Shown in pieces: positions 26,635 through 37,502 of a stretch of DNA of 39,725 nucleotides. The DNA lies in contig JAAZNC010000058.1 in the NCBI GenBank assembly GCA_012798455.1, positions 1 through 39,725 on the forward strand, written 5' to 3'. Position 1 is the first letter of the stretch. Each line of letters starts with the position of its first letter. Under the pieces are notes generated by a model, which saw only the letters and a program-made list of their open reading frames with translations, was not told the origin of the DNA and made no database searches. Source of the DNA: Chloroflexota bacterium. Its GTDB lineage: Bacteria; Chloroflexota; Anaerolineae; Anaerolineales; Anaerolineaceae. The position numbers and the translations under genes are program-made.

Positions 26635-26688
26635 CCGATAGGTTCATCCCTCATTCGATAAAAAGACACATGATGCAGAATTTTTTTA

Positions 26689-26762
26689 TGCCCCAGGAGG
26701 GATTCGAACCCCCAACCTAGGCGTTAGGAGTGCCTCGCTCTATCCATTTGAGCCACTGGGGC
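26689..26762 (-). tRNA. tRNA-Arg (anticodon CCT)
   Basis: A 74-base cloverleaf on the minus strand. The acceptor is GCCCCAG (26762-26756) paired with CTGGGGC (26696-26690), discriminator A at 26689. The T-arm GGGGGTTCGAATCCC is canonical. The anticodon loop CTCCTAA carries CCT, the rare arginine AGG reader, as in E. coli argW. The CCA end is not encoded. Confidence 0.93.
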
Positions 26763-26803
26763 ATATGGATGAAATTATAGCATTGAGAAAAAGGGCTGAC
26801 AAG

Positions 26804-26840
26804 AAAAAAAGAAGCTGCCGGTAGCTATCCGGCAGCTTTT
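26804..26840 (-). terminator. Rho-independent terminator
   Basis: AAGCTGCCGG (26812-26821) and CCGGCAGCTT (26829-26838) form a perfect 10-bp stem with a 7-base loop. On the minus strand it is followed by seven T residues (26810-26804). On the plus strand only TTTT follows, so leftward termination is favoured. Confidence 0.85.
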
Positions 26841-26942
26841 GGGAGGGATTGCCATCAACTACCCTTCTGGGGTCAAACAGCATGAGGAGGGACACGCTGT
26901 TTTGCGATGGCGATACCATACTTATAAGGAGTTTGGTATCTG
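26804..26942 (-). ncRNA. Candidate structured small RNA with C-rich (anti-Shine-Dalgarno) loops
   Basis: On the minus strand, a TATATTAT box (26955-26948) precedes a compact set of paired elements. Hairpin 1: GATACCA (26940-26934) with TGGTATC (26918-26912), loop containing ACTCCTTA. A helix GCCATC (26911-26906) with GATGGC (26856-26851) encloses hairpin 2, AAACAGCGTG (26902-26893) with CATGCTGTTT (26884-26875) and loop TCCCTCCT, and hairpin 3, ACCC/GGGT (26873-26861). Single-stranded AATCCCTCCC (26850-26841) follows, then a terminator. Loops and linker could pair with ribosome-binding sites. It matches no RNA family I recognise; the plus-strand reading would instead present GGA-rich loops. 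Confidence 0.5.
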
Positions 26943-27082
26943 AAGAGATAATATACCTAAATTGTCCTAATTACTATTAACAAAATCTCAGATTCATGTT
27001 TGATTGACGAATGTTTTAAAAGTTATTGGATGGTTTTATGACTATAATTCCATTAGGAAATAAATTATTGCAAAGGACCGCT

Positions 27083-28750
27083 ATGAATCAAGCTTATTAT
27101 CGCAAGTGGCGACCATCAACATGGGACGAGGTAGTAGGGCAAGATGCCATTGTGCATACGCTTCACAATGCCGTCACGCTCGAAAAATTTGGACATGCCT
27201 ATTTATTTTCCGGGCCACGCGGCACGGGGAAAACCTCTACTGCACGCATTTTGGCAAAAGCACTGAATTGTACCCATGACGAGCGAGTAAGGAGACCATG
27301 CGAAGAATGTGAGAACTGCAAAGCGATCAATAATGGCAGGTTCATGGACCTGATTGAGATCGATGCCGCTTCAAATACCAGCGTGGATGATATCCGCGAT
27401 CTGCGAGAAAAGATCAATTATTCCCCAACACAGGGCGAATACAAAGTGTACATCATCGATGAAGTGCACATGCTTTCGACAGCGGCTTTCAATGCATTGC
27501 TAAAGACCCTGGAGGAGCCACCGTCTCACTCGATCTTCATTTTGGCGACGACCGAGATCCATAAGATCCCGGCAACTGTACTTTCGCGCTGTCAGCGCTA
27601 CGAATTTCGGCAGATCCCTTTGAATACTATTACCGCTCAACTAAAGGAAATTGCTGAAAAGGAAAAATTGAAATTTGAAACCAGTGCACTAACCATGATC
27701 GCTCGGCAAGCTACCGGCAGCATGCGGGATGCTATCTCACTGCTGGACCAGATTGCATCAACCGGAGAAGAGATCACGCTGGCGCTAACCGAAGAGGTAC
27801 TGGGAACCTCTTCCAATGAAAATGTGACCAAACTGGTAGAAGTGCTGTTGCGCCGCGAGATGGATGGGGCGATTGATGCAATTCATGCGGCATTAGATAG
27901 CGGGACGGATGCACGGCAATTTACTAACCAGGTGGTGGAGTATTTACGTTCACTGCTGTTGGTCAAAACTGGAAATGCCAGTGATGTGGAAGTCACGCAG
28001 GATATCAAAAATAAGATGCAGGAAGAAGCAGAAGGGATTTCCATTCCTGCTTTGGCGGAATGGATTCGCAATTTTAACCAGGCATTGCACAATATGGGAT
28101 CGCGCTGGCAACCCAGCTTGGCATTGGAAATGGCAGTGGTGGAGAGCTTGGATGCCGATAAGAAAGAGGTTGAAAAAGCGATATCTCTCAAGAGCATCGG
28201 AACCAGTCAACCGGAGCGAAAAACAGAGAGTGCTTTGCGGCATGCCGCGAAAAATACACAAAAGGAACGAAGTGCTGTAACAAAAATAATAGGAGCAAAA
28301 CCTGCTGAGAGTGAGAAAATTGAACTTGAGCCTCAGGTAAATGAAGAAGTGACCAAGAACGTGGAGGTTAAGACCGCTACGCAAGCTCCATCAGAAGATA
28401 CGTTGCTTTCCAACTGGAAGGAGATCAAAACAGTGGTACGGCAAGAAAAGGCGCATATTGCAGGCTTGCTCAATTCGTGCAAATCCGTCAGTTTGGATGG
28501 CAATAGGCTAAAATTAAGTTTTGAAAGTGAGATCCTGTTGGCAAAGATGAACACTGAAGGCAACCGGGAAGTAACACAAAGAGCTGTAAAGACAGTAACC
28601 GGGATGGATGTGCAGATCGAATGTATGGTTATCAAAAATAACGGAAATGACAATGGAAAGGATAATTATCTTGCGGAGGAGCACGGTAATTTGGTAAGTG
28701 CCGCCCTTTCGCTGGGTGGAGAAATCGTAGAGAAGGAGAATAAAGATTAA
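27083..28750 (+). CDS. dnaX: DNA polymerase III subunit gamma/tau
   Basis: 555 aa from ATG 27083, which has AAAGGA just upstream and gives the canonical MNQAYYRKWRPSTWDEVVGQ; an in-frame ATG at 27026 would add 19 atypical residues. AAA+ clamp-loader motifs: Walker A SGPRGTGKTSTA, the zinc-binding cysteines in CTHDERVRRPCEECENC, Walker B YIIDEVHML, sensor 1 FILATTE and the SRC motif LSRCQRYEFR. Domain III and a C-terminal tau extension with a Lys/Glu-rich linker follow. Forms the clamp loader core of the replicase. Head of the dnaX-ybaB-recR cluster. Confidence 0.95.
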   Translation: MNQAYYRKWRPSTWDEVVGQDAIVHTLHNAVTLEKFGHAYLFSGPRGTGKTSTARILAKALNCTHDERVRRPCEECENCKAINNGRFMDLIEIDAASNTSVDDIRDLREKINYSPTQGEYKVYIIDEVHMLSTAAFNALLKTLEEPPSHSIFILATTEIHKIPATVLSRCQRYEFRQIPLNTITAQLKEIAEKEKLKFETSALTMIARQATGSMRDAISLLDQIASTGEEITLALTEEVLGTSSNENVTKLVEVLLRREMDGAIDAIHAALDSGTDARQFTNQVVEYLRSLLLVKTGNASDVEVTQDIKNKMQEEAEGISIPALAEWIRNFNQALHNMGSRWQPSLALEMAVVESLDADKKEVEKAISLKSIGTSQPERKTESALRHAAKNTQKERSAVTKIIGAKPAESEKIELEPQVNEEVTKNVEVKTATQAPSEDTLLSNWKEIKTVVRQEKAHIAGLLNSCKSVSLDGNRLKLSFESEILLAKMNTEGNREVTQRAVKTVTGMDVQIECMVIKNNGNDNGKDNYLAEEHGNLVSAALSLGGEIVEKENKD

Positions 28751-37330: not shown

Positions 37331-37408
37331 AATGGATTTCCTGTTCTTGTTCAGGACATATTGTAGTAGGAAAAAAGGACAACCCGCATAAGAGATTTCT
37401 TAAACAGG

Positions 37409-37502
37409 CGGGAATGGATGGGAGTCGAACCCACCACGACCTGCCTAACAGCCCGTCACCGATTTTGAAGACCGGGGGACCCACCGGGACCCTGCCATTC
37501 CC
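37409..37502 (-). tRNA. selC: tRNA-Sec (selenocysteine, anticodon TCA)
   Basis: A 94-base tRNA on the minus strand with the 8-bp acceptor typical of bacterial tRNA-Sec: GGGAATGG (37502-37495) pairs with CCATTCCC (37417-37410), discriminator G. The anticodon loop CTTCAAAA carries TCA (plus-strand TGA at 37466-37468), a long variable arm CGGGCTGTTAGGCAGG-like follows, and the T-loop GGTTCGACTCC is canonical. It decodes UGA as selenocysteine with SelB. The CCA end is not encoded. No sel gene lies nearby. Confidence 0.93.

Follow-up and report, generated by a model that had tools for sequence, protein, structure and literature searches.

Does the gap between a tRNA-Arg gene and dnaX encode a regulatory RNA, and if so on which strand, under which control and against which targets? 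The question comes from a window of 39,725 nucleotides, the whole stretch of Anaerolineaceae DNA analysed here, in which an initial annotation, made from the letters alone, had proposed for 26804-26955 a new Chloroflexota small RNA with anti-Shine-Dalgarno (anti-SD) loops of the RsaE/RoxS kind. That proposal has gained support from compensatory changes, from conservation and from the lack of an Rfam match, with repression of translation as its putative outcome.

Fold, strand and C-rich segments

Hairpin 1, a closing helix, a 10-bp hairpin, an ACCC/GGGT hairpin, a linker and a terminator with a T tract had been described as one nested fold, and all were found again on the minus strand, where the sequence from 26940 to about 26803 gives an RNA of about 138 nt with an intrinsic terminator at its end. 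Its 5' end is placed near 26940-26946, from the start of hairpin 1; the annotated interval holds as sRNA up to that point, and its remainder, to 26955, is promoter. The RNA and its neighbours are laid out as follows.

26688-26763, minus strand: tRNA-Arg(CCT), neighbouring gene, from the tRNA search
26803-26940, minus strand: sRNA of about 138 nt, 5' end set at the start of hairpin 1
26908-26940, minus strand: P1, 5' hairpin GATACC..GGTATC with CUCCUU in the loop region and CUCCUUAUA in the apical part, from the fold
26845-26907, minus strand: P2, closing helix GCCATC/GATGGC around P3 and P4, from fold and alignment
26869-26898, minus strand: P3, 10-bp hairpin with loop UCCCUCCU, a predicted anti-SD element, from fold and alignment
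26835-26851, minus strand: linker with AAUCCCUCCCA, a predicted anti-SD element, single stranded in the fold
26803-26838, minus strand: intrinsic terminator, 10-bp stem followed by the T tract CTTTTTTTC, from the fold and a terminator check
27083-28750, plus strand: dnaX, neighbouring divergent gene

Inside P2, P4 is a small 4-bp ACCC/GGGU hairpin. In the window copy, a single loop is CCCUCC, and the terminator loop is poor in C. The minus strand has an MFE of -55.4, whereas shuffled sequences average -30.2 (z -7.3), and 0 of 200 shuffles reach so low a value. The plus strand of the same interval also folds well (z -5.6), as is expected for any set of hairpins, and carries GGAGG within its loops, which fits the suggestion of a CsrA-titrating RNA that presents GGA motifs from that strand. 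We regard this as exceedingly improbable: a check for CsrA found none in five genomes of the genus, which removes the idea there, and the promoter, the T tract and the terminator all lie on the minus strand. Promoter, T tract and loop conservation agree in pointing to the minus strand as that of the sRNA. A protein-coding reading was rejected as well, since short ORFs are present in the interval but indels between relatives are not multiples of three.

In a BLAST search over 60 related genomes, the element appeared in all 4 same-genus genomes (G001-G004) at 68-95% identity, always divergently upstream of dnaX, so that its predicted conservation at this site is borne out. Among the resulting five aligned sequences, 10 of 41 pairs are changed on both sides with pairing kept, and the -10 element and the sequence upstream of it are better conserved than the hairpin 1 loop. 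In G004, the terminator (L003:1643-1728) contains an assembly gap, a run of N, with copies of the terminator stem on both flanks.

Compensatory changes, which the annotation had proposed to seek in relatives, are abundant in a larger alignment of 80 distinct sequences. There pairing is kept in 95.2% of helix cells, against 78.6% in shuffles, 389 cells are compensatory, with both sides changed (86 in shuffles), no pair of the 34 lacks a two-sided change, and covariation scores 0.427, compared with 0.168 for shuffled sequences and 0.06-0.07 for slid structures; since the sequences were aligned by fitting them to the model, these statistics lean towards the structure. Given how large the effect is and how the slid controls collapse, there is little doubt that the helices are real. 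P1 is paired in 98.5% of its helix cells, with extra ACU/AGU pairs that not all relatives keep, and the terminator helix shows two-sided changes at 14 of 14 model pairs.

The unpaired segments behave differently from the stems. Among 78 members, CCCUCC/CCCCCC hexamers number 3.4 per RNA against 0.18 in shuffles, their bases are unpaired in 92% of cases against 44% for all C, and the same test found no G-rich counterpart; the linker is C-rich in 68 of 78 relatives. Thus the stems drift while unpaired CCCUCC/CCCCCC is kept in the P3 loop, the linker and often the terminator loop, from which we infer that the C-rich loops are probably the working parts of the RNA.

Distribution and genomic neighbourhood of the family

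A covariance model built from the five same-genus sequences (R1) turned up clear relatives in two genera, g17 and g30, between dnaX and tRNA-Arg(CCT), and weaker matches in other genera, from which matches on the terminator alone were left out (L042-L046, L049-L053, L055, L056). Reading the sequence upstream of dnaX in additional genomes supplied more members. A second subtype (C7) emerged, with strong covariation of its own, in which the P3 loop is UCCCCCC, the linker AUUCCCUCCCUGA and the terminator hairpin loop carries GUCCCCCCCA. A model built from this subtype alone, and so from genera other than that of the window (R2), picks up the window copy with E 4.3e-9; it also finds relatives in 85 of 147 family genomes and 31 of 40 genera, nearly always at one copy per genome; in genus g18 and most of g16, the R2 search left the RNA missing or unrecognised. 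In a class-wide sample, many genomes of f12, a second family of the order, have the RNA, with CCCUCCC in hairpin 1 and, in some, a C7 hairpin that together with P2 is itself the terminator. A plasmid search gave no similar DNA. By these searches the RNA is a gene family conserved across Anaerolineales (Chloroflexota) and absent from Rfam.

Named members come from Levilinea saccharolytica, Thermanaerothrix daxensis, an Anaerolinea sp. and Anaerolineaceae MAGs, and the cultured hosts are the first two together with, putatively, Anaerolinea thermolimosa. Since this sRNA, mostly one copy per genome, reaches across two families of the order, has a regulatory input that can be read and occurs in strains available in culture, it makes Hfq-free post-transcriptional control testable in Chloroflexota.

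Two matches in f34, another family of the class, were set aside, their clear part being only terminator-like hairpins with CCCCCCU loops. These hairpins (L139:1501-1645 and L138:1501-1597, both minus strand) resemble the linker and terminator part of the sRNA, as possible homologues of it, and in L139 CCCTCCCTCA stands ahead of the CCCCCCU-loop hairpin.

The neighbourhood invites the thought that the RNA is a cis-acting leader controlling either tRNA-Arg, downstream on its own strand, or dnaX on the opposite one: dnaX lies divergently within 2 kb of the RNA in 25 of the 30 genomes with both mapped, and tRNA-Arg(CCT) lies downstream in several genera. We nevertheless consider a leader very unlikely. 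An intrinsic terminator closes the RNA, the tRNA has a promoter-like site of its own (TTGTCA-17-TATAAT, 26774-26802, 11/12 match), a conserved TATAAT for dnaX at 27043-27048 sits between the element and that gene, and in G047 (f12) the RNA is near neither dnaX nor tRNA-Arg(CCT). Because the RNA is not near dnaX in G047, dnaX is better taken as a neighbour of the trans-acting sRNA that we favour than as its target.

A further neighbour is a YacP-like NYN-domain gene (Rae1-like nuclease), which shares the strand of the sRNA and precedes it at 48 of the 56 loci with enough sequence for this check, in both families, its end mostly 46-92 nt before the RNA. In L087, it runs from about 520 to 56 nt upstream, with a similar arrangement at 47 other loci; a further example is L236:14023-14490. 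In the window's genus, no YacP-like NYN gene was found beside the RNA. The nuclease and the sRNA may be functionally linked.

Promoter and candidate regulator

Upstream of the RNA, the promoter consists of the following elements.

26986-26992, minus strand: TCTGAGA, first repeat of an 11-bp-spaced series, box of the response-regulator type, aligned with the TCTWAT repeats of relatives
26975-26981, minus strand: GTTAATA, second repeat, 11 bp downstream of the first, from the alignment
26964-26970, minus strand: TTAGGAC, putative third, degenerate repeat, GACAA-like in relatives, placed by its spacing
26948-26955, minus strand: TATATTAT, -10 element, conserved across the genus alignment as well as in most of 80 promoters

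Most of the 80 promoters read TCT[TA]AT-N5-TTTAATG, that is, two direct repeats spaced by 11 bp, often with a third (GACAA), and TATATTAT follows about 20 nt after TTAATG; the second repeat, TTAAT[GA], is the best-conserved promoter element, and a -35 consensus is absent from its usual place. Direct repeats of 11 bp are a general layout of OmpR-family sites. Direct-repeat pho boxes at a strict spacing to the core promoter are the arrangement through which PhoB/OmpR-family regulators activate (PMC10294691).

A comparison with phosphate genes bears on the regulator. In G000, G002 and G003, all of the window's genus, which have a cluster RR-HK-pstS-pstCA-pstB-phoU, tandem repeats of the type CCTTAAT-CAAA-CCTTAAC-CTTT-CTCTCAT-TTCT-TGTTAAA precede pstS, at a distance to a TATTAT-like -10 similar to that in the sRNA promoter. 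When scored with a matrix derived solely from the sRNA promoters of other genera, the pstS boxes of these three genomes rank 2nd, 8th and 11th of 172,204 positions, 21 of 4963 random segments reach the score of the weakest of them, and dinucleotide shuffles of the same intergenic regions give each a chance of 0.4-1.6%, the three genomes being close relatives and thus non-independent. The repeat layout at the -35 region and the ranking of the pstS boxes together make control of the sRNA promoter by a response regulator of the PhoB/OmpR type well supported.

Whether that regulator is PhoB is a narrower matter. The pstS boxes read TTAAA/TTAAC, the sRNA promoters TTAAT, and the box match at pstS is weak in G025 and absent in G029, so that an OmpR-family regulator other than PhoB is possible. 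We give a substantial chance, if short of even, to the same sRNA being driven by such a regulator, for instance of a redox or envelope-stress system: 11-bp direct repeats are common to the OmpR family, and the protein encoded beside pstS scores better with the YycF model than with the PhoB model, though under the cut-off of both. Against it stand the box similarity and promoter spacing common to the sRNA and pstS in the three genomes, as well as one sRNA promoter of genus g17 that carries TTTTAC-N5-GTTAAC, as at pstS. PhoB itself is a plausible candidate for the regulator.

The -10 region of the window's genus is palindromic (window 26940-26965 and L005:1560-1580; TGGATATACTATATCCA in G002), with changes that are partly symmetric between species, perhaps an added repressor site; the palindrome TGGATATACTATATCCA was set aside as an operator, since it is not kept outside the genus. 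A link to pst through the PBP_like_2 gene near the RNA in G047 was also dropped, the operon looking, by gene order only, like a tungstate-type transporter.

Known counterparts and the proposed mode of action

At the gathering score, Rfam 15 matched only tRNAs in the window and 16 relative loci, with no match to 6C, RsaE, SRP, tmRNA or Chloroflexi-1, and at permissive E (up to 1-5) it gave only sub-threshold matches, none convincing. The annotation's exclusion of SRP RNA, 6S and tmRNA is in line with this; for 6S, the covariance model puts this genome's gene elsewhere, at G000:C22:30947-31124. Among the papers searched, none describes a C-rich sRNA in Chloroflexota. A weak covariance-model resemblance to the alphaproteobacterial sRNAs BjrC1505 and ar7 (21.3 and 24.9 bits, far under the gathering scores of 50 and 60, and in another phylum) is probably due to C-rich hairpins plus a terminator.

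Closer counterparts in function exist. RoxS/RsaE of Bacillales is under the control of a two-component regulator. RsaE pairs with SDs through UCCC(C) seeds present in duplicate, which were tested by EMSA and CLASH (PMC9217828), and C-rich seeds pairing with SDs are what we propose here; however, there is no sequence or covariance match, and architecture and phylum are different. In 6C and the mycobacterial B11, hairpins with C-run loops pair with G tracts in 5' UTRs (PMC10470900, PMC8628891), and, to judge from the title under which PMC10470900 cites Mai et al. 2019, they bind targets without RNA chaperones. The C7 subtype has the same kind of C-run loops, and indeed the pair of hairpins, each with six or more C in its loop, that marks 6C, without an Rfam match; the window copy lacks this pair, with CCCUCC instead of six Cs. 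Moreover, 6C/B11 is actinobacterial, whereas the Anaerolineales RNA matches no Rfam family and has an extra 5' hairpin, a single-stranded CCCUCC linker and a multibranch P2. Most likely it works like 6C/B11 and RsaE/RoxS with no detectable homology to them: judged by sequence, its functional kind is known, the family itself is not in Rfam, and C-rich seeds, which apparently arose independently here, would be known from one more phylum.

The whole is best explained, and we think probably correctly, by a response-regulator-driven, Hfq-independent anti-SD sRNA that represses translation. As we infer it, an independently transcribed, trans-acting RNA of a conserved Anaerolineales family would be expressed from the minus strand when an OmpR/PhoB-type response regulator, possibly PhoB and hence under phosphate starvation, binds the 11-bp direct repeats in the -35 region and activates the promoter. 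Its stable stems would present at least two unpaired C-rich segments (here CUCCUU, UCCCUCCU and AAUCCCUCCCA), which would pair with the G-rich SD of their mRNA targets and, with no need of Hfq, keep translation from initiating. Two features expected of a trans-acting anti-SD sRNA are present: a promoter and terminator of its own, by sequence evidence, and conserved unpaired C-rich seeds. Hfq was not found in 21 genomes. The genome's GGAGGGA-type SDs are complementary to the sRNA loops, and GGAGGGA-N2-12-ATG has 81 sites in the genome and the reversed pattern 15; SDs matching the loops are therefore common.

Among ORFs behind GGGAGGGA-N2-12-ATG in nine genomes, with part of the sites covered, no target common to genera was found beyond generic response regulators, which counts weakly against the putative targets. 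It would suit a structured RNA that uses its C-rich loops to bind a protein or to sponge G-rich RNAs, with no anti-SD pairing to mRNA, as would the very stable stems and the near-invariant loops of the C7 subtype (UCCCCCC, AUUCCCUCCCUGA). This we consider unlikely, for the loops switch between CCCUCC and CCCCCC from one subfamily to another, the C-rich segments shift among the hairpin 1 loop, the linker and the terminator loop, and no candidate protein was identified; changing loops and shifting segments are more in keeping with pairing by short seeds than with a protein site that stays in place. With anti-SD pairing as the preferred mechanism, a broader proposal can be put forward tentatively, at rather less than even confidence: the PhoB (phosphate-starvation) core response of Anaerolineales may include one ancient Hfq-independent anti-SD sRNA, mostly beside a gene for a Rae1/YacP-like ribonuclease, which turns off the translation of a group of mRNAs.

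Elsewhere in the window, a selenocysteine tRNA gene lies at 37407-37502 on the minus strand (RF01852, 67 bits; ARAGORN agrees), which suggests selenoprotein synthesis in this organism.
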